The translations under genes were made by a program, and so were the position numbers. This document shows positions 1-64,000 of a DNA stretch of 64,000 nucleotides, one piece after another; position 1 is the first letter of the stretch; each line of letters opens with the position of its first letter. Under the pieces are notes generated by a model that saw only the letters and a program-made list of their open reading frames with translations, did no database searches and was not told the origin of the DNA. The stretch spans positions 868,001 through 932,000 of the forward strand of contig JBAIAA010000783.1 in assembly GCA_037893245.1 (NCBI GenBank), in the 5' to 3' direction. This stretch comes from Crossaster papposus. Taxonomy: Eukaryota; Echinodermata; Asteroidea; Velatida; Solasteridae.

Positions 1-272
1 CATACACTTAGAACACCACCCCCAGATGTTCCTGAAAGAAATTTGGCACGATTGCGTCATTCAAGGTCACGTGACGTCACCTTAAATGTTCAATTTTCCC
101 CCATAGGTTTTGTACACGTTTTTCTTTTCTATTTACTTTGACACTTTGGTAAATCCGATTGACTTGAGACTTAACACACACCTCAACCACCATCCTCATG
201 GGGGCCAAGAGGACAATCGTCATGATGACGTCATCGTGGGTCATGTGACGTCACATTAAAGGTGTAGTTTTT

Positions 273-566
273 AGGACCCTCTATCTCTGAAAGTACATGT
301 CCGATTTTGGTCAAACTTGGTATACAGGTATTCCGGGATGTGTTATAGACGAAAATCGGGGTGACGTCATGATGACGTCATCGTGGGTCATGTGACGTCA
401 CATTAAAGGTGTAGTTTTTAAGACCCTCTATCTCTGGAAGTACAAGTCCAATTAGGGTCAAACTTGATATTTAGGTATTTCGGGATGTGTTATAGACGGA
501 AATTAAGGTGACCTAACGATGACGTCATCGGGTGTCATGTGATGTCAAATTAAAGGTTTAGTTTTC
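273..566 (+). repeat. Type B monomer, about 147 bp (two representative units)
   Basis: The words GGACCCTCTATCTCTG near 273 and AGACCCTCTATCTCTGG near 420 mark successive units. Each runs through TCCGATTNGGGTCAAACTTG, GTATTCCGGGATGTGTTATA, then two CRE palindromes (ATGATGACGTCATCG and ATGTGACGTCACAT). Type B shares its CRE block and ATTAAAGGT with type A, so the two are probably derived from one ancestor. Confidence 0.75.
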
Positions 567-896
567 CCTATAGGATTTGTACATGTTTTTTGCAACCAAT
601 ATATATTTGGCACTTTTGTAAATCTGATCAACTTCAGATTTGGTACACACTTCGACAACCACTAACATATTGAAAGTAATTTTAGACATGCGAAACAGCT
701 CTGTGTTTGTCCACAAACACATTTCTAGTTTTTTTTTTTTTTCTTTTTCAGCATTTTCTCCATAGGATTTGCACACGTTTGTTCAGACAATACACTTTGA
801 CTCTTTGGTAAATCCGATGGACTTGAGACTTGGCATACACTTAGACAACCACCCAAGGACGGTCCTAGAAGAAATTCGTCGCGATTACGTCATTCA

Positions 897-1246
897 AGGT
901 CACGTGACTTCGCGTTAAAGGTGAAATTTTCCCCATAGGTTTTGTACACGTTTTTCTTAAGACTATTGTCTTTGACACTTTGGTTAATCCGACCGACTTA
1001 AAACTTGGCATACACTTAGAACACCACCCCCAGATGTTCCTGAAAGAAATTCGGCACGATTGCGTCTTTCAAGGTCACGTGACGTCACATTAAAGGTGCA
1101 CATTTTTCTCCCATTGGTTTTGTACACGTTTTTCTTTAGACTATTGACTTTGACACTTTAGTAAATCCGATCGACTTGAGACTTGGCACACACATAGACC
1201 ACCATCCACAGACGGTCGTAGAAAACAATTGGCACGATTACGTCAT
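897..1246 (+). repeat. Type A monomer, about 175 bp (two representative units)
   Basis: Successive units start with AAGGTCACGTGAC at about 897, 1071 and 1247. Each unit contains, in order: the CACGTG/TGACGTCA block, GTTAAAGGTG, a CCCCATAGGTTTTGTACACG stretch, TTGACTTTGACACTTTGGTA, ATCCGATCGACTTGAGACTT, a CACACACTTAGACCACC-like run and GATTACGTCATTC. Units elsewhere in the array differ mainly by substitutions and short indels. Confidence 0.8.
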
Positions 1247-1447
1247 TCAAGGTCACGGGGCGTCACATTAAAGGTTCAATTTTCCCCCATAGGTTTTTGT
1301 ACACGACTTTGACACTTCCGTAAATTTGATCGACTTGAGACTTGGCACACACAAAAGACCACACACACATATTGAAAGTAATTTTAGACACTCGAAACAG
1401 CTCTGTGTTTGTCCACAAACACATGTCTATTTTTTTTTTTTTTTTTT

Positions 1448-1543
1448 AGCTGTTTCGGTTTTTCACCGAAACAGCTCTTGTAATCGTTAAAGTTTTTTTT
1501 TTTCTTTTTTTTTTAGCTGTTTCGGTTTTTCACCGAAACAGCT
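1448..1543. repeat. Two subterminal hairpins (1448-1476, 1515-1543)
   Basis: Each is a perfect 12-bp inverted repeat, AGCTGTTTCGGT and ACCGAAACAGCT, with a 5-nt loop. Each is followed by TTGTAATCGTTAAAG and a T tract. The arm CCGAAACAGCT also occurs just before each 3' hairpin of the array. This fits paired subterminal inverted repeats at the two ends of one element family. Confidence 0.65.
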
Positions 1544-4500
1544 TTTGTAATCGTTAAAGTTTTTTTTTTTCTTTTTTTTTTTTTTCTTTTTCAGACTTTT
1601 CTCCATAGGATTTGCACACGTTTGTTCAGACAATACACTTTGACACTTTAATAAATCCGATCGACTTGAGACTTGGCACACACTTAGACCACCACCCACA
1701 GACGGTCCTCGAAGAAATTCGTTACGATTACGTCATTCAAGGTCACGTGACTTCGCATTAAAGGTGAAATTTTCCCCATAGGTTTTGTACACGTTTTTCT
1801 TCAGACTCTTGACTTTGACACTTTGGTAAATCCGACCGACTTGAAACTTGGCATACACTTAGAACACCCTTCTTAGATGTTTCTGAAAGAAATTCGGCAC
1901 GATTGCATCATTCACGGTCACGTGACGTCACATTAAAGGTGCACATTTTTCTCCCATAGGTTTTGTACACGTTTTTCTTTAGACTATTGCCGTTGACACT
2001 TTAGTAAATCTGATCGACTTGAGACTTGGCACACACAAAAGACCACCACACACATATTAAAAGTAATTTTAGACACTCGAAACAGCTCTGTGTTTGTCCA
2101 CAAACACATGTCTAGTTTTTTTTTTTTTTTCTTTTTCAGCATTTTCTCCATAGGATTTGCACACGTTTGTTCAGACAATACACTTTGACACTTTGGTAAA
2201 TCCGATAGACTTGAGACTTGGCATACACTTAGACAACCACCCAAGGACGGTCCTAGAAGAAATTCGTCGCGATTACGTCATTCAAGGTCACGTGACGTCA
2301 TGTTAAAGGTAAAATTTTCCCCATAGGTTTTGTACACGTTTTTCTTCAGACTCTTGACTTTGACACTTTGGTATATCCGACCGACTTGAAACTTGGTATA
2401 TACTTAGAACACCACCCACAGATGGCTCTTGAAGAAATTCGGTACGATTGCATCATTCAAGGTCACGTGACGTGACGTTAAAGGTGCAAATTTTGTCCCC
2501 ATAGGGTTTGTACACGTTTTTCTTCAGACTATTGACTTTGACACTTTCGTAGACTTGATCGACTTGAGACTTAGCACACACCTCGACCACCATCTCCAGG
2601 AGGGCCAAGGGTAAAATCTTCATGATGACGTCATCGGGGGGTCACGGCACGTCACATTAAAGGTTCAGTTTTTAGGACCCGCTATCTCTGGAAGTACAGT
2701 TCTGATTGGGGTCAAACTTGGTATGCAAGTATTCCAGGGTGTGTTATAGACGAAAAATAAAATGACATCATGATGACGTCATCGTGGGTCATGTGACGTC
2801 ACATTAAAGGGATTAAAGGTTCAGTTTTTAGGACCCGCTATCTCTGGAAGTACAGGTGCGATTGGGGTCAAACTTGGTATGCAAGTATTCCAGAATGTTT
2901 TATAGACGAAAAATAAAATTACATCATGATGACGTCATCGTGGGTCATGTGACGTCACATTAAAGGTCCAGTTTTTAGGACCCTCTATCTCTAGAAGTAC
3001 ATGTCCGATTGGGGTCAAACTTGGTATGCAAGTATTCCAGGATGTGTTACAGACGAAAATTAAGATGACATCATGATGACATCATCGGGTATCATGTGAC
3101 GTCACATTAAAGGTTCAAATTTCCCCATAGGATTTGTACACGTTTTTTCAACTAATATATATTTGGCACTTGTGTAAATCCAATCGACTTCAGACTTGGC
3201 ACACACATAGACCACCACACACACATATATTGAAAGTAACGTTAGACAATCGAAACAGCTCTGTGTTTGTCCACAAACACATGTCTAGTTTTTTTTTTTT
3301 TTTTGCCTTTTGTTCTCCATAGGATTTGTACACGTTTGTTCAGACAATACACTTTGACACTTTGGTAAATCCGATGGACTTGAGACTTGGCATACACTTA
3401 GACAACCACCCAAGGACGGTCCTAGAAGAAATTCGTCGCGATTACGTCATTCAAGGTCACGTGACTTCGCGTTAAAGGTGAAATTTTTCCCATAGGTTTT
3501 GTACACGTTTTTCTTCAGACTGTTGAATTTGACACTTTGGTAAATCCGACCGACTTGAAACTTGCCATACACTCAGAACACCACCACCAGATGTTTCTGA
3601 AAGAAATTCAGCACGATTGCGTCATTCAAGGTCACGTGACGTCAAGTTAAAGGTTTAATTCGTCCCCCATAGGTTTTGTACACGTTTTCTTTAGACTATT
3701 GACTTTGACACTAAGTAAATCCGATCGACTTGAAACTTGGCACACACATAGACCACCATCCACAGACGGTCGTAGGAGAAATTTGGCACGATTACGTCAT
3801 TCAAGGTCACGGGGCGTCACGTTAAAGGTTCAATTTTCCCCTATAGGTTTTGTACACGTTTTACTTAAGAATATTGACTTTGACACTTTATTAAATCTGA
3901 TCGACTTGAGACTTGGCACACACAAAAGACCACCACACACATATTGAAAGTAATTTGAGACACTCGAAACAGCTCCGTGTTTGTCCACAAACACATGTCT
4001 AGTTTTTTTTTTTTTTTTGCCTTTTGTTCTCCATAGGATTTGTACACGTTTGTTCAGACAATACACTTTGACACTTTGGTAAATCCGATGGACTTGAGAC
4101 TTGGCATACACTTAGACAACCACCCAAGGACGGTCCTAGAAGAAATTCGTCGCGATTACGTCATTCAAGGTCACGTGACTTAGCGTTAAAGGTGAAATTT
4201 TTCCCATAGGTTTTGTACACGTTTTTCTTCAGACTATTGAATTTGACACTTTGGTCAATCCGACCGAATTGAAACTTGCCATACACTCAGAACACCACCA
4301 CCAGATGTTTCTGAAAGAAATTCAGCACGATTGCGTCATTCAAGGTCACGTGACGTCAAGTTAAAGGTTTAATTTGTCCCCCATAGGTTTTGTACACGTT
4401 TTTCTTGAGACTCTTGACTTTGACACTTAGTTAATCCGATCGACTTGAGACTTGGCACACACATAGACCACCATCTACAGACGGTCGTAGGAGAAATTTG

Positions 4501-4727
4501 GCACGATTACGTCATTCAAGGTTACGGGGTGTCACGTTAAAGGTTCAATTTTCCCCCATAGGTTTTGTACACGTTTTTCTTTAGACTATTGACTTTGACA
4601 CTTTAGTAAATCTGATCGACTTGAGACTTGGCACACACAAAAGATTACCACATACATATTGAAAGTAATTTTAGACACTCGAAACAGCTCTGTGTTTGTC
4701 CACAAACACATGTCTAGTTTTTTTTTT

Positions 4728-4812
4728 AGCTGTTTCGGTTTTTCACCGAAACAGCTTTTGTAATCGTTAAAGTTTTTTTTTTAGCTGTTTCGGCCTTTCA
4801 GCCGAAACAGCT
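4728..4812. repeat. Two subterminal hairpins with a compensated base pair
   Basis: 4728-4756 has arms ending GGT/ACC. 4783-4812 has arms ending GGC/GCC with a 6-nt loop. The T-A to C-G change occurs on both arms, so pairing is kept. Both are followed by a short TTGTNNTCGTTAAAG tail and T tracts. Confidence 0.7.
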
Positions 4813-4840
4813 TTTGTTTTCGTTAAAGTTTTTTTTTTTC

Positions 4841-4871
<31 letters not shown>

Positions 4872-7759
4872 TATTTGTCATTTTTTCCCATAGGATTTGT
4901 ACACGTTTTTTCTGCCAATACACTTTGACACTTTGGTAAATCCGATCGACTTGAAACTTGGCATACACTTAGACAACCACCCAAGGACGGTCCTAGAAGA
5001 AATTCGTCGCGATTCCGTAATTCAAGGTCACGTGACGTCATGTTAAAGGTATAATTTTCCCCATAGGTTTTTCACACGTTTTTCCTCAAACTATTGACTT
5101 TGACACTTTAATGAATTCGATCGACTTGAGACTTAGCATACACTTAGATAGTCCTGGACGAAATTCGGCATGATTTGCGTTATTCAAGGTCACGTGACGT
5201 GACGTTAAAGGTGTACATTTTTTTCCCATAGGGTTTGTACACGTTTGTCTTCAGACTATTGACTTTGACACTTTCGTACATTTGATCGACTCGAGACTTA
5301 GCACACATCTCGACCACCATCCCCAGGTGGGCCAAGGGGAAAATCGTCATAATGACATCATCGTGGGTCATGTGACGTCACATTAAAGGTGCAGTTTTAA
5401 GGACCCTCTATCTTTGGAAATACAGGCCCGATTGGGGTCAAGCTTGGTATGCAAGTATTCCAGGATGTGTTACAGACGAAAATTAAGATGACATCATGAT
5501 GACATCATCGGGTGTCATGTGACGTCACATTAAAGGTGCAATTTTCCCCATAGGATTTGTACACATTTTTTCCAACTAATATATCTTTGGCAATTGTGTA
5601 AATCCACGCAGCTTTACCTTACATACGCACTGTGGACATTCCTTTGTCTTCGTGTAGTTAACAAACTTTGACTAAATACTCATTTGTCTCGCTTCCCCAA
5701 AACAAATTTACCCTCAAATTTGGATTATGGGCCTCTCAGCTGTCCCTTCTATCTTTTCTATATATAACCCTAACCCGTTTTTCCTCTAGCGCTCTTTTTC
5801 GGAAACTAAAAAACAGATTGTGGACGTGTGCAAGTCCACAAACCGTAACCTCTTCCCGCATCGTGTGGACCTATATTGTTCGGATGTCCACAGTGCGTAT
5901 GCAAGACTAACTCATCGACGTCAGACTTGGCACACACATAGACCATCATCAGATACACATATAGAAAGTAATGTTAGACACCCAAAACAGCTCTGTGTTT
6001 GTCCACAAACACATGTCTAGTTTCTTTTTTTTTTTCTTTTTTTTTTTTTTTCTTTTTCAGACTTTTCTCCATAGGATTTGCACACGTTTGTTCAGACAAT
6101 ACACTTTGACACTTTGGTAAATCCGATCGACTTGATACTTGGCATACATTTAGACAACCACCCAAAGACGGTCCTCGAAGAAATTCGTCGCGATTACGTC
6201 ATTCAAGGTCACGTGACTTCGCGTTAAAGGTGAAATTTTTCCCATAGGTTTTGTACACGTTTTTCTTCAGACTATTGACTTTGACACTTTAGTAAATCAG
6301 ACCGACTTGAAACTTGGCATACCCTTAGAACACCACCCCCAGATGTTTCTGAATGAAATTCGGCACGATTGCGTCATTTAAGGTCACGTGACGTCACATT
6401 AAAGGTTCACATTTTTCTCCCATTGGTTTTGTATACGTTTTTCTTTAGACTATTGACTGACACTTTAGTAAATCCGATCGACTTGAGACTTGGCACGCAC
6501 TTAGACCACCATCCACAGACGGCCCTAGAAGAAATTTGGCACGATTGCGTCATTCAAGGTCACGTGACGTCACCTTAAAGATTCAATTTTTTCCCCATAG
6601 GTTTTGTACACGTTTTTCTTCAGACTTTTGACTTTGACACTTTGTAAATTTGATCGACTTGAGACTTGGCACACACATAGACCACCACACACACATATTG
6701 AAAATAATGTAAGACACTCGAAACAGCTCTGTGTTTGTCCACAAACACATGTCTAGTTTTTTTTTTTTTCCCTCTGTTTTAGACTCCTCTCCATAGGGTT
6801 TGTACACATGTTTTCTTCAACCAGTACACTTTGGCACTTTGGTAAATCCGATTGAATTGAGACTTGGCATACATTTAGACCACCACCCACAGATGGTCCT
6901 AGAAGAAATTCGTCATGATTGCGTCATTCAAGGTCACGTGACGTCACTTTAAAGGTGCAATTTTTCCCCATAGGTTTTGTACACGTTTTTCTTCAGACTA
7001 TTGAATTTGACAATTTGGTAAATCCGATCTTTTTTTTTTTTTTTTTTGCCTTTTGTTCTCCATAGGATTTGTACACGTTTGTTCAGACAATACACTTTGA
7101 CACTTTGGTAAATCCGATGGACTTGAGACTTGGCATACACTTAGACAACCACCCAAGGACGGTCCTAGAAGAAATTCGTCGCGATTACGTCATTCAAGGT
7201 CACGTGACTTCGCGTTAAAGGTGAAATTTTTCCCATAGGTTTTGTACACGTTTTTCTTCAGACTGTTGAATTTGACACTTTGGTAAATCCGACCGACTTG
7301 AAACTTGCCATACACTCAGAACACCACCACCAGATGTTTCTGAAAGAAATTCAGCACGATTGCGTTATTCAAGGTCACGTGACGTCAAGTTAAAGGTTTA
7401 ATTCGTCCCCCATAGGTTTTGTACACGTTTTCTTTAGACTCTTGACTTTGACACTAAGTAAATCCGATCGACTTGAGACTTGGCACACACATAAACCACC
7501 ATCCACAGACGGTCATAGGAGAAATTTGGCACGATTACGTCATTCAAGGTTACGGGGTGTCACGTTAAAGGTTCAATTTTCCCCCATAGGTTTTGTACAC
7601 GTTTTTCTTTAGACTATTGACTTTGACACTTTAGTAAATCTGATCGACTTGAGACTTGGCACACACAAAAGATTACCACATACATATTGAAAGTAATTTT
7701 AGACACTCGAAACAGCTCTGCGTTTGTCCACAAACACATGTCTAGTTTTTTTTTTTTTT

Positions 7760-7788
7760 AGCTGTTTCGGTTTTTCACCGAAACAGCT
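7760..7788. repeat. Subterminal hairpin
   Basis: Same 12-bp stem (AGCTGTTTCGGT/ACCGAAACAGCT) as at 1448, placed 14 bases after a CTAG terminus and followed by a long T tract. Confidence 0.65.
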
Positions 7789-7802
7789 TTTGTTTTCGTT
7801 AA

Positions 7803-7834
<32 letters not shown>

Positions 7835-10800
7835 CCACTTTCAGACTTTTTCCCATAGGATTTGTACACGTTTTTTCAGCCAATACACTTTGACACTTTG
7901 GTAAATCCGATCGACTTGAGACTTGGCATACATTTAGACAACCACCCAAGGACGGTCCTAGAAGAAATTCGTCGCGATTACGTCATTCAAGGTCACGTGA
8001 CTTCGCGTTAAAGGTGAAATTTTCCCCATAGGTTTTGTACACGTTTTTCTTCAGACTATTACATTTGACACTTTGGTCAATCTGACCGACTTGAAACTTG
8101 CCATACACTCAGAACACCACCACCAGATGTTTCTGAAAGAAATTCAGCACGATTGCGTCATTCAAGGTCACGTGACGTCAAGTTAAAGGTTTAATTTGTC
8201 CCCCATAGGTTTTGTACACGTTTTTCTTTAGTCTATTGACTTTGACACTTAGTAAATCCGATCGACTTGAGACTTGGCACACACGTAGACCACTATCCAC
8301 AGACGGTCGTAGGAGAAATGTGGCACGATTACGTCATTCAAGGTCACGGGGCGTCACGTTAAAGGTTCAATTTTCCCCCATAGGTTTTGTACAGTTTGTC
8401 TTTAGACTATTGTCTTTGACACTAGTAAATCTGATCGACTTGAGACTTGGCACACACAAAAGACCACCACATACACATTGAAAGTAACTTTGGACACTCG
8501 AAACAGCTCTGTGTTTGTCCACAAACACATGTCTAGTTTTTTTTTTTTCTCCTTCAGACTCTTCTCCATAGGGTTTGTACACGTTTTTTCTTCAGCCAAT
8601 ACACTTTGGCACTTTGGTAAATCCGATCGACTTGAGACTTGGCATACATTTAGACAACCACCCACAGATGGTCCTAGAAGAAATTCGTCATGATTACGTC
8701 ATTCGTGGTCACGTGACGTCACGTTAAAGGTGTAATTTTTCCCCATAGGATTTGTACACGTTTTTCTTCAGAATATTGAATTTGACACTTCGGTAAATCC
8801 GATCGACTTGAGACTTAAGACACACCTCGACCACCATCCCCAGAGGGGTCAAAAGAAAAATCGTCATGATGACGTCATCGTGGGTCATTTGACGTCACAT
8901 TAAAGGTGCAGTTTATAAGACCCTCTATCTCTGGAAGTACAGGCCCGATTGGGGACAAACTTGATATGCAAGTATCCTGGGATGTGTTATAGACGATGAT
9001 TAAGATGACATTACGATGACGTCATCGGGTGTCATGTGACGTCACATTAAAGGGGCAGTTTTCCCTATAGGTTTTGTACACGTTTTTCGTCAGACTATTG
9101 AATTTGACACTTTGGTAAATCCAATCGACTCGAGACTTAGTACACACCTCGACCACCATCTCTAGGAGGGCTACCAGGATAATCGTCATGATGACGTCAT
9201 CGTGGGTCATGTGACGTCACTTTAAAGGTGTAGTTTTTAAGACCCTTTATCTCTGGAAGTAAAGGTCTGATTGGGGTCAAACTTGGTATGCAAGTATTCC
9301 AGGAAGTGTTATAGACGAAAATTAAGATGACGTCATGACGACGTCATCACGGACCATGTGACGTCACATTAAAGGTGCAGTTTTCCCTATAGGTTTTGTA
9401 CACGTTTTTCGTCAGACTATTGAATTTGACACTTTGGTCAATCCAATCGACTCGAGACTTAGTACACACCTCGACCACCATCTCTAGGAGAGCCACAAGG
9501 ATAATCGTCATGATGACGTCATCGTGGGTCATGTGACGTCACTTTAAAGGTGTAGTTTTTAAGACCCTCTATCTCTGGAAGTAAAGGTCTGATTGGGGTC
9601 AAACTTGGTATGCAAGTATTCCAGGATGTGTTATAGAGGAAAATTAAGATGACGTCATGACGACGTCATCGTGGGCCATGTGACGTCACATTAAAGGTGA
9701 GTTTTCCCCTTAGGATTTGAACACGTTTTTTCAACTAATATATCTTTGACACTTTGGTAAATCCGATCGACTTCAGACTTGGCTAGCTACTCTTAGCATA
9801 CTACCCACGGATGATTCTAGAAGAAATTCGTCACGATTACGTCATTCATGGTCACGTGACGTCACGTTAAAGGTTCAATTTTCCCCATAGGTTTTGTACA
9901 CGTTTTCATCAAGACTATTGACTTCGACACTTTAGTAAATCCGATTGACCTAAAAGTTAGCGCACACCTCAACCACCAACCTCAGAAGGGCCAATATGAA
10001 AATCGCCATGATGACGTCATCGGGGGTCATGTGACGTCACATTAAAGGTTCAGTTCTTAGGACCCTCTATCTCTGGAAGTACAAGTCCGATTAGTGTCAA
10101 ACTTGGTATACAGGTATTCCGGGATGTGTTATATACGAAAATTAAGGTGACGTCATAATGACGTCATGTGACGTCACATTAAAGGTGTAGTTTTCCCCAT
10201 ATGATTTGTACACGTTTTTTCACCCGATATATACATCCGGTCGACTCCAGACTTAGCACACACCTCGACCACCATACCCATGAGGGCCAAGGGAAACATC
10301 GTCATAATGACGTCCTCGTGGGTCATGTGACGTCACATTAAAGGGGCAGATTTTAGGACCCTCTATCTCTGGAAGTACAAGTCTGATTGGGGTCAAACTT
10401 GGTATGCAAGTATTCCAGAATGTGTTATATACGAAAATTAAGATGACATCATGATGACATCATCGGGTGTCATGTGACGTCATATTAAAGGTGTAGTTTT
10501 CCCCAAAGGATTTGTACACGTTTTTTGTCAACCAATATATCTTTGGCACTTGGGTAAATCAGATTGACTTCAGCTTTGCGACACACTTAGACCACCACCC
10601 ACTTATTACAAAACAAATTAGACATCCGAAACAGCTCTGTGTTTGTCCACAAACACATGTCTAGTTTTTTCTTTTCTTTTTTTTTCTTTTTTAGACTTTT
10701 CTCCATAGGATTTGCACACGTTTGTTCAGACAATACACTTTGACACTTTGGTAAATCCGATCGACTTGATACTTGGCATACATTTAGACAACCACCCAAA

Positions 10801-11216
10801 GACGGTCCTCGAAGAAATTCGTCGCGATTACGTCATTCAAGGTCACGTGACCCCACGTTAAAGATAATATTTTCCCCATAGGTTTTGTACACGTTTTTCT
10901 TCAGACTATTGAATTTGACACTTCGGTAAATCCGACCGACTTGAAACTTGGCATGCCCTTAGAACACCACCCCCAGATGTTCCTGAAAGAAATTTGGCAC
11001 GATTGCGTCATTGAACGTCACGTGACGTCACGTTAAAGGTTCAATTTTCCCCCATGGGTTTTGTACACGTTTTTCTTTAGACTGTTGACTTTGACACTTT
11101 CGTAAATTTGATCGACTTGAGACTTGGCACACACATAGACCACCACACACACATATTGAAAGTAATGTAAGACACTCGAAACAGCTCTGTGTTTGTCCAC
11201 AAACACATATCTAGTT

Positions 11217-11246
11217 AGCTGTTTCGGCAATTCAGCCGAAACAGCT
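11217..11246. repeat. Subterminal hairpin directly after a CTAG end
   Basis: Stem AGCTGTTTCGGC/GCCGAAACAGCT with loop AATTCA. Only two T residues separate it from the CTAG at 11211-11214, so an element end and an element start are nearly back to back. Confidence 0.65.
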
Positions 11247-11260
11247 ATTGTTTTTGTTAA

Positions 11261-11305
<45 letters not shown>

Positions 11306-14300
11306 CCTTCTGTTTCAGACTATTCTCCATAGGATTTGTACACGTTTTTTTTTCAGCCAGTACACTTTGACACTCTGGTAAATCCGATCGACTTGAGACT
11401 TGGCATACACTTAGACCACCACCCACAGATGATCCTACCGGTAGAAGAAATTTGTCACGATTACGTCATTCGTGGTCACGTGACGTCACGTTAAAGGTGC
11501 AATTTTTTCCCATAGGATTTGTACACGTTTTTCTTCAGAATATTGAATTTGACACTTTTGTAAACCCAATCGACTTGAGACTTAGCACAGACCTTGACCA
11601 ACATCCTTAGGAGGGCCAAGAAAAAAATAATCAAGATGACGTCATCGTGGGTCATGTGACGTCACATTAAAGGTGTAGTTTTTAAGACCCTCTAACTCTG
11701 AAAGTACAAGTCCGGTTGGGGTCAAACTTGGTTTGCAAGTATTCGAGGATGTGTTAAAGACGAACATTAAGATGACGTAATTATGACATCATCGGGTGTC
11801 ATGTGACGTCACATTAAAGGTTCAGTTTTCTCCTTAGGTTTTGTACACGTTTTTCTTCAAAATATTGAATTTGACACTTCTGTAAATCCGATCGACTTCC
11901 GACTTAGCACACACCTCGACCACCATACCCAGGAGGGCCAAGGGGAAAATCGTCAGGATGACGTCATCGTGGGTCATGTGACGTCACATTAAAGGGGCAG
12001 ATTTTAGGACCCTCTATCTCTAGAAGTACATGTCTGATTGGGGCCAAACTTGGTATGCAAGTATTCCAGAATGTGTTATAGACAAAAATTAAGATGACAT
12101 CATGATGACATCATCGGGTGTCATGTGACGTCACTTTAAAGGTGCAGTTTTTCCCATAGGATTTGTACACGTATTTTTCAACTTATATATCTTTGGAAAA
12201 TTGGCAAATCCAATCGATTTCAGACTTGGCACACACATAATGAAAGTCATCTTAGACAGCCGAAACAGCTCTGTGTTTGTCCACAAACACATGTCTAGTT
12301 TTTCCTTTTTTTCTTCTGTTTCAGACTCTTCTCGATAGGGTTTGTACACGTTTTTTCTTCAGCCAATACACTTTGACACTTTGGTAAATCCGGTCGACTT
12401 GAGACTTGGCATACATTTAGACAACCACCCAAGGACGGTCCTAGAAGAAATTCGTCGCGATTACGTCATTCGTGGTCACGTGACGTCACGTTAAAGGTGC
12501 AATTTTTCCCCATAGGATTTGTACATGTTTTTCTTCAGACTATTGAATTTGACACTTCTGTAAATTCGATCGACTTGAGACTTAGCACAGACCTCGACCA
12601 CCATCCTTAGGAGGGCCAAGAAAAAAATAATCAAGATGACGTCATCGCGGGTCATGTGACGTCACATTAAAGGTGTAGTTTTTAAGACCCTCTAACTCTG
12701 AAAGTACAAGTCCGGTTGGGGTCAAACTTGGTTTGCAAGTATTCGAGGATGTGTTATAGACGAAAATTAAGATGACGTAATTATGACATCATCGGGTGTC
12801 ATGTGACGTCACATTAAAGGTTGAATGTTCTCCATAGGTTTTGTACACGTTTTTCTTCAAAATATTGAATTTGACACTTCTGTAAATTCGATCGACTTGA
12901 GACTTAGCACAGACCTCGACCACCATCCTTAGGAGGGCCAAGAAAAAAATAATCAAGATGACGTCATCGCGGGTCATGTGACGTCACATTAAAGGTGTAG
13001 TTTTTAAGACCCTCTAACTCTGAAAGTACAAGTCCGGTTGGGGTCAAACTTGGTTTGCAAGTATTCGAGGATGTGTTATAGACGAAAATTAAGATGACGT
13101 AATTATGACATCATCGGGTGTCATGTGACGTCACATTAAAGGTTTAGTTTTTAAGACCCTCTATCTTTAGAAGTACATGTCCGATTGGGGTCAAACTTGG
13201 TATGCAAGTATTCCAGGATGTGTTACAGACGAAATTTAAGATGACATCATGATGACATCATCGGGTATCATGTGACGTCACATTAAAGGTTCAATTTTCC
13301 CCATAGGATTTGTACACGTTTTTTCAACTAATATATCTTTGGCAATTGTGTAAATTCATCGACTTCAGACTTGGCACACACATAGACCATTATCAGATAC
13401 ACATATAGAAAGTAATGTTAGACACCCGAAACAGCTCTGTGTTTGTCCACAAACACATGTCTAGTTTTTTTTTTTCCAGTTTCAGACTTTTTCCCATAGG
13501 ATTTGTACACGTTTCGTTCAGCCAATACACTTTGACACTTTGGTAAATCCGATCGACTTAAAACTTGGCATACAATAAGAACACCACCCACGGATGGTCC
13601 TAGAAGAAATTCGTCGCGATTACGTCATTCATGGTCACGTGACGTCACGTTAAAGGTGCAATTTTTCCCCATAGGTTTTGTACACGTTTTCATCCAGACT
13701 ATTGACTTTGACACTTTAGTGAATCCGATTGACCTAAAAGTTAGCACACACCTCAACCACCATCCTCAGAAGGGCCAATATGAAAATCGCCATGATGACG
13801 TCATCGGGGGTCATGTGACGTCACATTAAAGGTTCAGTTTTTAGGACCCTCTATCTCTGGAAGTACAAGTCCGATTAGTGTCAAACTTGGTATACAGGTA
13901 TTCCGGGATGTGTTATATACGAAAATTAAGGTTACGTCATAATGACGTCATAACGACGTCTTTTGACGTCACATTAAAGGTGGAGTTTTCCCCATAAGAT
14001 TTGTACACGTTTTTTCACATGATATATATTTGGCACTTTGGTAAATCCGATCGACTTCAGACTTGGCTAGCTACTCTTAGCATACTACCCACGGATGATT
14101 CTAAAAGAAATTCGTCACGATTACGTCATTCATGGTCACGTGACGTCACGTTAAAGGTTCAGTTTTCCCCCATAGGTTTTGTAGACGTTTTCATCAAGAC
14201 TATTGACTTCGACACTTTAGTCAATCCGATTGACCTAAAAGTTAGCGCACACCTCAACCACCAACCTCAGAAGGGCCAATATGAAAATCGCCATGATGAC

Positions 14301-15222
14301 GTCATCGGGGGTCATGTGACGTCACATTAAAGGTCAGTTCCTAGGACCCTCTATCTCTGGAAGTACATGTCCGATTAGTGTCAAACTTGGTATACAGGTA
14401 TTCCGGGATGTGTTATATACGAAAATTAAGGTGATGTCATAATGACGTCATAACGACGTCATGTGACTTCACATTAAAGGTGTAGTTTTCCCCATAAGAT
14501 TTGTACACGTTTTTTCACCCGATATATATTTGGCACTTTGGTAAATCCGATCGACTTTAGACTTGGCTAGCTACTCTTACCATACTACCCACAGATGATT
14601 CTAGAAGAAATTCGTCACGATTACGTCATTCGTGGTCACGTGACATCACGTTAAAGGTGCAGTTTTTTCCCCATAGGTTTTGTACACGTTTTTCTTAAGA
14701 CTATTGACTTTGACACTTTGGTCAATCCGATCGACTTCCGACTTAGCACACACTTCGATCACCATCCCCAGGAGGGCCAAGATAAAAATCGTCATAATGA
14801 CGTCTTAGTGGGTCATGTGACGTCACATTATAAATGTTCATTTTTTTGGACCCTCTATCTCTGGAAGTACTGGTCCGATTGTGCTCAAACGTGGTTTACA
14901 GGTATTCCGGGATATGCTATAGATATAAATGGAGGTGATGGCATGATGACGTCATCGGGTGTTGTGGCGTCACCTTAAAGGTGTAGTTGTTAAGACCCTC
15001 TATCTCTAGAAGTACAGGTCCGATTGGGGTCAAACTTGGTACGCAAGTATTTCGGGATGTGTTATAGGTATTCATTGGGGTCACGTCATGATGACGTCAT
15101 CGGGTGTAATGAGATGTCACAAGGTGTATTTGTTATAGTTTTAGATCAATGTTGGTGTCATTTATGTCACATTTGTTATCAATGAAAGTATTTTGTGATG
15201 GTGTCATAGAATCATTAACACT

Positions 15223-15259
15223 GCCGAAACAGCTAGTGTTTGTCCACAAACACATCTAG
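15223..15259 (+). repeat. Terminal 3' end of the array
   Basis: GCCGAAACAGCT (15223-15234) is followed by the stem GTGTTTGT (15236-15243), CC, ACAAACAC (15246-15253), AT and CTAG (15256-15259). The next base is T, and all similarity to the array ends there. This is the one copy that can be compared with unrelated flanking DNA, so it fixes the element boundary. Confidence 0.75.
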
Positions 15260-15763
15260 TTTTATTATTGTCAGCACTAGTACATAAACTTCAGTACTCA
15301 CTCATTTTTTTTATGGAACATAACTTGCAAAGTGACATTAAAATAAATAGAATCACATGAAAATTGAGAATTAACAAATAAATGTTCACAATTTGTGGCC
15401 CTGTACCCACGTTTTGGTTGCTGTGGTCCAGGAGTGATAATGCCTGCCCCAACCCTACAGTTTTATTTTACAATGGACCTGTAACATTACTGGGAAGCTG
15501 AATTGTTTGTGATAAAAGTCATGGTTGTAATAACATTTAAAATTACAGAAATGGTGAATTGTATGCACCATTTGCAAATAATAATTACATTTAAATTTGT
15601 GTAAATGCCTATTTGAGTACCATATTTTCTCAGTAAGAGGGATATTCATACTCCATCGTGGATGTTTCGGTATGTAGCTCTAATAAGTTTAAACTAGGTT
15701 ACACTTTTCAATTAGAAAAAGCCTTGAAAATAGTTGCCCTCATTGGAACAGGGATAGTGGAAG
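15260..15763. other. Unassigned flank
   Basis: AT-rich single-copy-looking DNA. I see no exon, RNA gene or transposon end here. Confidence 0.5.
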
Positions 15764-15767
15764 TTAA

Positions 15768-16001
15768 CCAGTTCGCGCCGGATGACGTATATAAACGCAA
15801 AAATTTTCCCAAATTCAAAACGGATGACGAATAAACACGCCAAGTTCAAGTTCGGAAATGTATGTCAGCAGCGCGCAAGGCCGGAAATGCGTGGGTGTGC
15901 TACCCAGCACTATCGGCCTGAACACGCTTCGGATCTAGTTTCGTTAAAAATAATCCCGCCCGTCGGCTCGGCGATGTTAAAATAATCCCGGCGCGAACTG
16001 G
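15768..16001 (+). mobile_element. MITE with TTAA target-site duplication (copy 1)
   Basis: A 234-bp element with terminal inverted repeats CCAGTTCGCGCCGG and CCGGCGCGAACTGG. It is flanked by TTAA at 15764-15767 and 16002-16005. TTAA duplication with a CC start suggests a piggyBac-like origin; Kolobok also uses TTAA. Two more copies lie at 28649-31871 (interrupted, opposite orientation) and 60027-60259 (opposite orientation). Confidence 0.85.
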
Positions 16002-16163
16002 TTAACTGAATGAAAAATGTCAGAAAAATGCTCCTGACTTGTCTTAAATATTTAGTCATTTAGTACACAAAAACCAGTTCCAGCATAATTCTCTCAGCTT
16101 TTCCCTCTAAAATTAAGAATTATAACAATCACAAAATCACTGAAGTGAGCACATTAATGTTAC

Positions 16164-16340
16164 CACATTTACAACCCATGCGATATTTGGCAGATAATGC
16201 ACATAGCCGGTACGACATGCTTCTAATGTTGGGGCTTAGATAGTAGGCTGGCACTGGATCTGAGTAAACACAAGTCTTCTGTGGAGGTCTGTCATTAGCA
16301 CTGCTTGTCTCCTGATTAGCAACTGCATATAAGGTTAAAT
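16164..16340 (-). CDS. Internal coding exon of an unrecognised protein
   Basis: On the minus strand a 177-nt open segment is preceded by a pyrimidine-rich acceptor (TTTTTTCTCTCTAG) and followed by a donor (AAATGTG then GTAACA). It begins with two bases that complete a codon, reads 58 codons and ends with one base of the next, so both introns are phase 1. The peptide includes QKTCVYSDPVPAYYLSPNIR and then SYRLCALSAKYRMGCKC, with four cysteines. I do not recognise the family. It could belong to the same minus-strand gene as the putative first exon at 17594-17764, but nothing proves the link. Open frame, both splice signals and natural composition support it as an exon. Confidence 0.5.
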
Positions 16341-28956: not shown

Positions 28957-29232
28957 TCTCCACTCGAACATCGCTCGATGCGCGCTCGAACTCTGCTCGA
29001 TGCGCGCTCGATCCGCGCTCGAACTCCGCTCGATGCGTGCTCGATCTCTGCTCGTTGCGCGCTCGATCTCTGCTATGATGCGCGCTCGATCTCCGCTCGA
29101 TCCGCGCTCGATTTCCGCTCGATCCGCGCTCGATTTTCGCTCGATCCGCGCTCGATTTCTGCTCGATCCGCGCTCGATCCGTGCTCGATCTCCACTCGAT
29201 GTGTGCTCGATCTCCGCTTGATGTGCATTAGA
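28957..29232 (+). repeat. 11-bp CTCGAT minisatellite, left
   Basis: Units such as CGCTCGATCTC and CGCTCGATCCG repeat at about 11-bp steps directly inside the left TIR. Apparent reading frames of Arg/Ser/Leu repeats are by-products of the period and are not genes. Confidence 0.8.
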
Positions 29233-31624: not shown

Positions 31625-31778
31625 ATACACTTCAATTTCCGCTCGATGCATTGCGTGTTGGATCTCCACTCGATTAGTGCTCGATCTCTGCTCGATCTCC
31701 GCTCGATGTCCGCTCGATGTTCGCTCGATCATTGCTCGATGTCCACTCGATCTCTGCTCGGTCACGGCTCGACGCAAT
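31625..31778 (+). repeat. 11-bp CTCGAT minisatellite, right
   Basis: The same unit and the same strand orientation as at 28957, now directly inside the right TIR of the same element. Confidence 0.75.
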
Positions 31779-42955: not shown

Positions 42956-43006
42956 TCCTTTCCCCTTTTCCTTTTGCCTTTTCCCCTTCCTTTCCACTTT
43001 TCCCTT

Positions 43007-43316
43007 CCTTGCCTTTTTCCTTGCCTTTTTCCTTGCCTTTTTCCTTGCCTTTTTCCTTGCCTTTTTCCTTGCCTTTTTCCTTGCCTTTTTCCTTGCCTTT
43101 TTCCTTGCCTTTTTCCTTGCCTTTTTCCTTGCCTTTTTCCTTGCCTTTTTCCTTGCCTTTTTCCTTGCCTTTTTCCTTGCCTTTTTCCTTGCCTTTTTCC
43201 TTGCCTTTTTCCTTGCCTTTTTCCTTGCCTTTTTCCTTGCCTTTTTCCTTGCCTTTTTCCTTGGCCTTTTTCCTTGCCTTTTTCCTTGCCTTTTTCCTTG
43301 CCTTTTTCCTTGCCTT
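43007..43316 (+). repeat. 12-bp minisatellite CCTTGCCTTTTT
   Basis: About 26 nearly identical units, with one extra G near 43262. All three plus-strand frames and the three minus frames are open across it, which explains several long but meaningless ORFs. Confidence 0.9.
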
Positions 43317-43319
43317 TCC

Positions 43320-62316: not shown

Positions 62317-64000
62317 GACTCGACTGCGCACTGTGGCTGGACTGCGCACTGTGGCTGGACTGCGCACTGTGGCTGGACTGCGCACTGTGGCTGGACTGCG
62401 CACTGTGGCTGGACTGCGCACTGTGGCTCGACTGCGCACTGTGGCTCGACTGCGCACTGTGGCTCGACTGCGCACTGTGGCTCGACTGCGCACTGTGGCT
62501 CGACTGCGCACTGTGGCTCGACTGCGCACTGTGGCTCGACTGCGCACTGTGGCTCGACTGCGCACTGTGGCTCGACTGCGCACTGTGGCTCGACTGCGCA
62601 CTGTGGCTCGACTGCGCACTGTGGCTCGACTGCGCACTGTGGCTCGACTGGGCACTGTGGCTCGACTGGGCACTGTGGCTCGACTGGACACTGTGGCTCG
62701 ACTGGACACTGTGGCTCGACTGGACACTGTGGCTCGACTGGACACTGTGGCTCGACTGGACACTGTGGCTCGACTGGACACTGTGGCTCGACTGGACACT
62801 GTGGCTCGACTGCGCACTGTGGCTCGACTGCGCACTGTGGCTCGACTGCGCACTGTGGCTCGACTGCGCACTGTGGCTCGACTGCGCACTGTGGCTCGAC
62901 TGCGCACTGTGGCTCGACTGCGCACTGTGGCTCGACTGCGCACTGTGGCTCGACTGCGCACTGTGGCTCGACTGCGCACTGTGGCTCGACTGCGCACTGT
63001 GGCTCGACTGCGCACTGTGGCTCGACTGCGCACTGTGGCTCGACTGCGCACTGTGGCTCGACTGCGCACTGTGGCTCGACTGCGCACTGTGGCTCGACTG
63101 CGCACTGTGGCTCGACTGCGCACTGTGGCTCGACTGCGCACTGTGGCTCGACTGCGCACTGTGGCTCGACTGCGCACTGTGGCTCGACTGCGCACTGTGG
63201 CTCGACTGCGCACTGTGGCTCGACTGCGCACTGTGGCTCGACTGCGCACTGTGGCTCGACTGCGCACTGTGGCTCGACTGCGCACTGTGGCTCGACTGCG
63301 CACTGTGGCTCGACTGCGCACTGTGGCTCGACTGCGCACTGTGGCTCGACTGCGCACTGTGGCTCGACTGCGCACTGTGGCTCGACTGCGCACTGTGGCT
63401 CGACTGCGCACTGTGGCTCGACTGCGCACTGTGGCTCGACTGCGCACTGTGGCTCGACTGCGCACTGTGGCTCGACTGCGCACTGTGGCTCGACTGCGCA
63501 CTGTGGCTCGACTGCGCACTGTGGCTCGACTGCGCACTGTGGCTCGACTGCGCACTGTGGCTCGACTGCGCACTGTGGCTCGACTGCGCACTGTGGCTCG
63601 ACTGCGCACTGTGGCTCGACTGCGCACTGTGGCTCGACTGCGCACTGTGGCTCGACTGCGCACTGTGGCTCGACTGCGCACTGTGGCTCGACTGCGCACT
63701 GTGGCTCGACTGCGCACTGTGGCTCGACTGCGCACTGTGGCTCGACTGCGCACTGTGGCTCGACTGCGCACTGTGGCTCGACTGCGCACTGTGGCTCGAC
63801 TGCGCACTGTGGCTCGACTGCGCACTGTGGCTCGACTGCGCACTGTGGCTCGACTGCGCACTGTGGCTCGACTGCGCACTGTGGCTCGACTGCGCACTGT
63901 GGCTCGACTGCGCACTGTGGCTCGACTGCGCACTGTGGCTCGACTGCGCACTGTGGCTCGACTGCGCACTGTGGCTCGACTGCGCACTGTGGCTCGACTG
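62317..64000 (+). repeat. 18-bp satellite GCTCGACTGCGCACTGTG
   Basis: About 93 units, running off the window end. Variants are grouped: five units with GCTGGACTGCG at the left, then standard units, two with GGGCACTG, seven with GGACACTG (about 62684-62806), then only standard units. The 610-codon minus-strand frame is a by-product of an 18-bp period that lacks stops. Confidence 0.95.

Follow-up and report, generated by a model that had tools for sequence, protein, structure and literature searches.

The first 15,259 bases of a 64,000-base stretch of the genome of the sea star Crossaster papposus (bases 868001-932000 of contig C783, JBAIAA010000783.1, in assembly GCA_037893245.1; hereafter the window) form the right part of an array built from HINEs, that is, non-autonomous Helentrons. 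The members of this HINE family very probably lie nested in one another, and most of the repeated 3' ends that punctuate the array stem from nested self-insertion, the target being the poly-T tract that follows the 5' module of each element. A first-pass annotation of the window, made from the sequence alone, had proposed either read-through of termination or repeated insertion into T tracts as the origin of these ends. Insertion is borne out directly: near-identical elements occupy unrelated locations, and related sites exist in which the insert is missing. What had not been recognised is that the tract is usually the family's own.

Structure and classification of the element

The element begins behind a T with a 5' module of the form AGCTGTTTCGG-spacer-CCGAAACAGCT(A/T/C)TTGT..TCGTTAAAG, in which the tail is variable (for example nTTGTnnTCGTTAAAG, followed by the T tract), and continues with a poly-T tract, 147/175-bp repeats, the arm of a 3' subterminal inverted repeat (subTIR), an 8-bp palindrome and CTAG, after which comes a T. 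The 5' module thus combines a 5' subTIR with a complementary inverted repeat (AGCTGTTTCGG-n-CCGAAACAGCT), an arrangement that occurs at 9,205 exact places in the genome (1.02 Gb in 1,841 contigs) and at none in a control with the reversed pattern. The 3' subTIR matches the 5' one and is followed by the palindrome (CCGAAACAGCT-type arm, GTGTTTGTCCACAAACAC, CTAG), AGCTGTTTCGG being the inverse of the CCGAAACAGCT arm that adjoins it. Between the two modules lie the microsatellite-like poly-T tract and the satellite-like tandem repeats, with monomer periods of 147 and 175 bp and higher-order periods of 351 and 322 bp. Coding capacity was absent: positions 1-16300 of the window contain no open reading frame that reaches 200 codons.

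Canonical Helitrons (Helitron1) are marked by a 3' hairpin with CTRR, and they insert between A and T, so that their 5' neighbour is an A. The array element has the hairpin and CTAG at its 3' end, and on the 5' side 5,379 of its 5,391 exact modules adjoin a T. The array unit is a HINE, and the Helentron/HINE assignment of the first-pass annotation agrees with the structural features that could be tested.

Insertion next to T

We examined 20 loci, each spanning 9.9 kb and containing a match to the outermost 3' end of the array (20 of the 40 places listed by the search), together with the start of the window and the 10 kb upstream of it. Each locus was cut 8.9 kb to the left and 1 kb to the right of a 3' end, and the overlapping loci L033/L034 and L036/L037 were merged into L034_33 and L036_37. 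The merged loci hold 124 3' ends and 87 5' modules when counted by pattern, and 126 and 88, respectively, when counted by profile; as the near-palindromic 5' profile also matches the minus strand, plus-strand matches alone were counted.

Directly past all 124 3' ends, and directly before all 87 5' modules, stands a T. The same rule holds genome-wide: exact inner 3' ends are followed by T in 7,994 of 8,014 cases (another base in 20), and exact 5' modules with a 7-base spacer are preceded by another base in only 12 of 5,391. In the 20 exact 3' ends with a different next base this is G (16), A (3) or C (1), and four of them are regularly spaced on contig C80.

The sequence past the 124 3' ends was classified by script as T-tract plus monomer in 75 cases, a 5' module in 32 and other in 17. 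By reading, these 17 resolved into 8 non-array flanks (two of which, at L040 and L034_33, are the same flank), 8 variants of T-tract plus monomer and one missed module. Correspondingly, of the 87 5' modules, 48 come immediately behind another 5' module and 32 immediately behind a 3' end, which leaves 7 at other positions. The repeats themselves contain none of the 80 modules internal to the array; in loci with at least three termini, 3,140 of 19,021 TT sites fall in T runs of at least eight and 15,881 outside them. The first-pass annotation had asked whether the flanks of terminus copies are T-rich and unrelated, and indeed T is nearly always next and the non-array flanks differ by locus. It had also held that conserved sequence past CTAG in other copies would speak against a true end. 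The 75 of 124 ends followed by T-tract and monomer have that appearance, but the sequence there is the interrupted outer element and not a longer terminus.

Evidence for nested self-insertion

The most direct evidence comes from a 1,519-bp element present in four copies with pairwise identities of 99.67-99.87%, without gaps. At L042 it lies in a T-tract of non-array DNA, and at L030, L035 and L043 it lies inside the T-tract of another element's 5' module, with the outer T-tract and monomers resuming past its CTAG. These four copies are the only matches of about 100% among the 40 scored of 5,790 candidates, and the next full-length matches have 95% identity.

An empty counterpart of a filled site was found in the pair L027 and L029. 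L027 (7032-8911) is the uninterrupted counterpart of L029, in which a 779-bp element (6320-7098) occupies the same T-tract; the first 58 bp from the module on are identical in the two loci, and the 1,813 bp past the insert contain a single mismatch. In L027 the tract counts 28 T, as compared to 11 + 19 in L029, which limits any duplication to two T's at most.

A third case is a 1,954-bp body that is 99.7-99.9% identical at L031, at L032 and at two sites of L036_37. Its own module immediately precedes it at L032, and at the other three places it resumes past a nested CTAG; the outer bodies that surround it show identities of only 75-92%.

For a more general view we asked whether the half of a T-tract that stays behind a module matches the subfamily of the half that resumes past the nested 3' end (within one base), using 36 uninterrupted elements as a key. 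Of 39 resumed pairs, 8 had no key, and in 23 of the 31 usable pairs the halves paired as nesting predicts were concordant. Shuffling gave a mean of 7.6, with 0 of 5,000 shuffles reaching 23, and pairing each half with the last preceding module gave 9 of 31.

The 5' modules also form stacks, with 1,571 exact 5'-5' stacks (gap of 6-16 nt) genome-wide. In 41 of 48 cases, neighbouring modules of a stack are of different types (7 identical vs 4.0 expected at random), and the stacks are therefore mostly not tandem duplications. In addition, the ends of 119 segments shared between loci coincide with a module or terminus T-tract in 119 of 236 cases on the left and 120 of 232 on the right (edges excluded), as compared to 5.1% and 2.8% of random positions, respectively. 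Every locus read that has several termini shows frequent nesting.

A model for the growth of the array

The data above demonstrate both the nesting and the rule of insertion next to T. In the model that we propose, an element inserts between T's, with no target duplication beyond a couple of T's. Two kinds of target are available to members of the family, namely the long T tract that each element carries just inside its 5' module and the T run past each CTAG, and because these T's lie on one strand, the insertions share one orientation. Each insertion splits the outer element, so that 5' modules pile up into stacks, and past each inner 3' end comes what is left of the interrupted T tract and then the repeats of the outer element, which yields many 3' ends in one direction. 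The insertions are presumably performed by the Rep-helicase-endonuclease of a Helentron, and the choice of the own tract may reflect active targeting rather than a plain preference for T-tracts. We consider it an evenly balanced question whether the 5' poly-T tract has evolved as a strand-specific, built-in landing pad preferred by its own family, such that the family grows by self-nesting that spares unique DNA and recursive insertion is a main route to satellite-like arrays in this genome (over 25 kb here, in one direction).

Nested self-insertion is a concrete and readable mechanism for the growth of satellite-like DNA. Its bracket-like grammar, with stacks of 5' modules on one side and 3' ends followed by resumed halves on the other, lets the order of insertions be read, and the thousands of junctions in a single genome provide a means to tell self-insertion from missed termination, to which tandem Helitrons are commonly ascribed. 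It also suggests how a rolling-circle family may attain high copy number while sparing unique DNA.

A stretch of 0.9 kb shared by L029 (546-1455) and L043 (2293-3205; both in array orientation) has a different hairpin, TCTGTTC..GAACAGA, and the end CTCTAG, and probably belongs to a second Helentron-like family. At L043 this stretch is followed by the T-tract and body of a HINE, and at L029 a HINE begins in the T's behind it. The CTCTAG-ended element ends in a HINE T-tract at L043, so the landing pad may be shared.

Alternative explanations

Several observations weigh against nested insertion as a complete account. In the merged loci 3' ends outnumber 5' modules (126 vs 88), which is partly an edge effect of the way the loci were cut. 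Missed copies were considered as the cause of this surplus and rejected, the profile search having added just one 5' module and two 3' matches. The left array edge is in view at seven loci, and modules are never short at L027, L030, L042 and L036_37; a shortfall of modules, and hence unpaired 3' ends, occurs at L029 (one), L031 (two) and L038 (two). Transposon neighbours may hide modules at two of these, the left neighbour being a Gypsy-like element at L031 and the end of an element with another hairpin at L029, but L038 is flanked on both sides by non-array DNA and yet has surplus 3' ends. Further, 8 of the 31 split-half pairs are discordant, and about half of the shared-segment ends lie elsewhere, in the repeats or adjoining them, which implies exchange as an additional process. 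Some loci are not independent of one another, L034_33 and L040 having a common right flank; the empty sites are paralogous rather than the same locus before insertion, and no Rep-encoding element with these termini was found in the Rep loci read.

The surplus could arise if 3' termination were read through during rolling-circle transposition, the inner CTAG hairpins being bypassed to give concatemers or composites with several 3' ends. Tandem Helitron arrays elsewhere have been ascribed to a bypassed termination signal (PMC4067079, in the sections available to us), and the module-less 3' ends at L038 and L031 are what is expected of a composite whose transposition started from an inner 5' module and continued beyond the inner 3' ends. 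In simple concatemers, however, CTAG should be followed directly by the beginning of the same element, whereas a T-tract remnant and monomer stand past 83 of the 124 3' ends (75 by script and 8 by reading), and the split halves match as nested pairs (23 of 31) and not as neighbours (9 of 31). We also examined one candidate for composite transposition, the 1,954-bp body at L031, L032 and L036_37 (a single candidate, with no wider search for composites), and rejected it: the inner element is common to these places but the outer body is not, and with an inner body near-identical and outer ones at 75-92%, these places did not receive the composite in one piece. We therefore regard read-through as an unlikely source of the repeated 3' ends. 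It is unnecessary for most of them, and the surplus ends such as those at L038 may be its province. These same ends could instead reflect the loss of 5' modules from stacks by deletion between the short stack repeats, a possibility to which we give somewhat less than even weight. L038 otherwise parses as nested, and stacks of up to six similar modules (such as that at -817 to -521 of the window) would in principle be unstable substrates, but most adjacent modules differ in type and thus give no sign of frequent exchange.

Amplification of the satellite type, in which unequal exchange or slippage multiplied a unit containing the terminus and nothing transposed into the array, has some traces in the data. 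The 3' ends at 3288, 4002 and 4717 of the window are spaced by 714-715 bp, L040 contains a 2.9-kb self-repeat of 98.9% identity, and together with the 351- and 322-bp higher-order periods and the roughly half of the shared-segment ends away from T-tracts these features show exchange at work in the repeats. The other half of these ends, however, coincide with a module or terminus T-tract, 10 to 18 times as often as random positions do, adjacent stacked modules are mostly of differing type, and near-identical elements occur in unrelated flanks. As sole cause, satellite amplification is refuted by the 1,519-bp copies and the L027/L029 pair, and we judge an array formed in this manner to be very improbable; exchange of this type likely acts as a second process beside nested insertion.

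Search for an autonomous partner

Judging from the anatomy of the element, a Helentron would be the autonomous partner of the HINE array. Genome searches with the Rep domain PF14214 (150 scored of 273 candidates) and with PIF1 (PF05970; 150 scored of 298) led to a copy on contig C257 that has a single frame, with a stop at 530010, for Rep, PIF1 and an Exo_endo_phos endonuclease, and is a Helentron. In this one copy, the 4,000 bases from 530000 (L048) contained neither a 3' terminus of the array type, by a loose pattern, nor a fitting hairpin; the 1,500 bases preceding position 530000 (L049) are coding. The ten highest-scoring Rep loci (3.5 kb each) had neither terminus, which carries little weight as they reach only 1.5 kb past the Rep domain. 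In the 4.0 kb of the C257 copy and these ten loci we thus found no Rep/helicase element sharing both termini. Behind the Helentron frame, positions 3000-4000 of L048 hold imperfect repeats of about 70 bp, as judged by eye, that are possibly tandem repeats of its own.

Comparison with known systems

HINEs of the Pacific oyster are described with a 5' subTIR of 11-12 bp, a complementary inverted repeat after 1-12 bp, a microsatellite, satellite-like tandem repeats, a 3' subTIR and a palindrome (PMC7492417, in the text available to us, as for the further sources here). They share these modules with the array element, as well as T-rich targets and the lack of target duplication; the likeness is one of described modules, not of compared sequences. 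The oyster microsatellites mostly have 4-nt motifs (GTCY etc.), whereas the tract of the array element is poly-T, i.e. a preferred target, and the word "nested" is absent from the accessible part of that paper. HINE/DINE-1 elements and Helentrons, the latter with Rep, helicase and endonuclease and described as partners of the former, also resemble the array element in their subTIRs, 3' stem-loop, TT target in T-rich DNA, variable number of T's at the ends and empty sites without target change (PMC4067079). In contrast, the portion of that work available to us describes no family-wide nesting and puts tandem arrays down to bypassed termination.

In FoHeli of Fusarium oxysporum (Helitron2), self-insertion has been proposed to explain several short 5' termini with one 3' terminus (PMC5148889); the part of the report at hand gives a few cases, whereas here there are 1,571 exact 5'-5' stacks and 3' ends multiply too. 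Plant centromeric tandem Helitrons (Xiong et al. 2016, cited in PMC12628747) similarly form satellite-like arrays from rolling-circle elements, but according to the citing passage many of them combine several 5' ends with just one 3' end, which is attributed to terminator loss, in contrast to the many 3' ends found here. Transposable-element dimers in Drosophila (McGurk and Barbash, cited in PMC12628747) are likewise arrays seeded by insertion preference and not by replication error; unlike in our case, no built-in target tract is mentioned in the citing text. What is new here is that the element carries the target itself, that nesting occurs in every multi-terminus locus read and that 3' ends multiply. 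Searches of an open-access library yielded no report of self-nesting into an element's own tract, although this is a weak negative.

Layout of the array in the window

A directional pattern for arm, palindrome, CTAG or CTAT and T, applied to the whole window, retrieved 15 termini on the plus strand and none on the minus strand. All 15 fall within 1-15300 and none in the remainder, and 100 dinucleotide shuffles of 1-15300 gave no match; reversed 3' ends were also absent from the 20 loci read, the window and the upstream 10 kb. The fifteen plus-oriented hairpin termini and the two monomer periods of the first-pass annotation were thus recovered; the 5' modules were missing from its list. Its description of every terminus as CTAG followed by T holds for T in 15 of 15 and for CTAG in 14, the exception being CTAT at 1430. 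The last terminus shares the general form of the others but is not a copy of the same one, as it belongs to another subfamily (GCTAGTGTTTG...ACATCTAG) than the 14 inner ones (mostly ...CTCTGTGTTTG...ACATGTCTAG). The array also does not start at coordinate 1, since the 10 kb to the left of the window consist of the same array with further termini, so that it exceeds 25 kb.

In the 25 kb read, 12 of the 15 3' ends pair with a 5' module; all features listed here are on the plus strand. Six use a stack of six modules (-817 to -521) located 0.5-0.8 kb left of the window: the ends at 690-728 (partner at about -521), 1391-1430 (the CTAT variant; -589), 3963-4002 (-653), 4678-4717 (-704), 7706-7745 (-756) and 10625-10664 (-817). 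The other six pair with modules in the window. The module at 1448-1476, which has the module at 1515-1543 stacked in its T-tract, pairs with the 3' end at 3250-3288, and the inner module with that at 2076-2115. The same arrangement recurs at 4728-4756, with a module at 4783-4812 stacked in its T-tract; the outer module pairs with the end at 6717-6756 and the inner one with that at 5982-6020. The module at 7760-7788 and the end at 8497-8536 delimit a 777-bp element, and the module at 11217-11246, two T past the preceding CTAG, pairs with the end at 12259-12298. The 3' ends at 11175-11214, 13425-13464 and 15223-15259 have no partner in the 25 kb read. The last of these closes a segment (13465-15259) composed of a T-tract remnant, repeats and a 3' end of the second type, with no 5' module of its own in those 25 kb.

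The last 3' end (15223-15259; GCCGAAACAGCT AGTGTTTGTCCACAAACAC AT CTAG) is the array boundary. The array stops exactly at CTAG 15259, beyond which are a T and unrelated DNA. A genome search with this terminus scored 40 of 374 candidates, with a query that stopped at the boundary and so cannot itself demonstrate it. In the other genomic copies the sequence past CTAG varies by locus, with 8 visible non-array flanks, one of which occurs twice, and T-tract plus monomer or a 5' module in the others. This variation shows that 15259 is a real element end, as the first-pass annotation had held.

Other features of the window

Scans of the window with Rfam and for tRNAs gave no matches. Short minus-strand frames at about 22.7-28.6 kb are probably a decayed BEL/Pao-like element, and amid them lies a Pao retrotransposon peptidase domain (PF05380; 24691-25062, minus strand, 1.2e-21). 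Three further kinds of short tandem repeat were found: an 18-bp GC-rich satellite, CTCGACTGCGCACTGTGG, with 93 copies at 99% from 62319 to the window end at 64000; an 11-bp repeat of the CGCTCGATCCG / CTCGATCACTG kind in two separate arrays (28972-29224 and 31669-31772), with higher periods of 22 and 33 bp; and a 12-bp repeat, TTCCTTGCCTTT, with 26 copies at 99% at 43005-43317.

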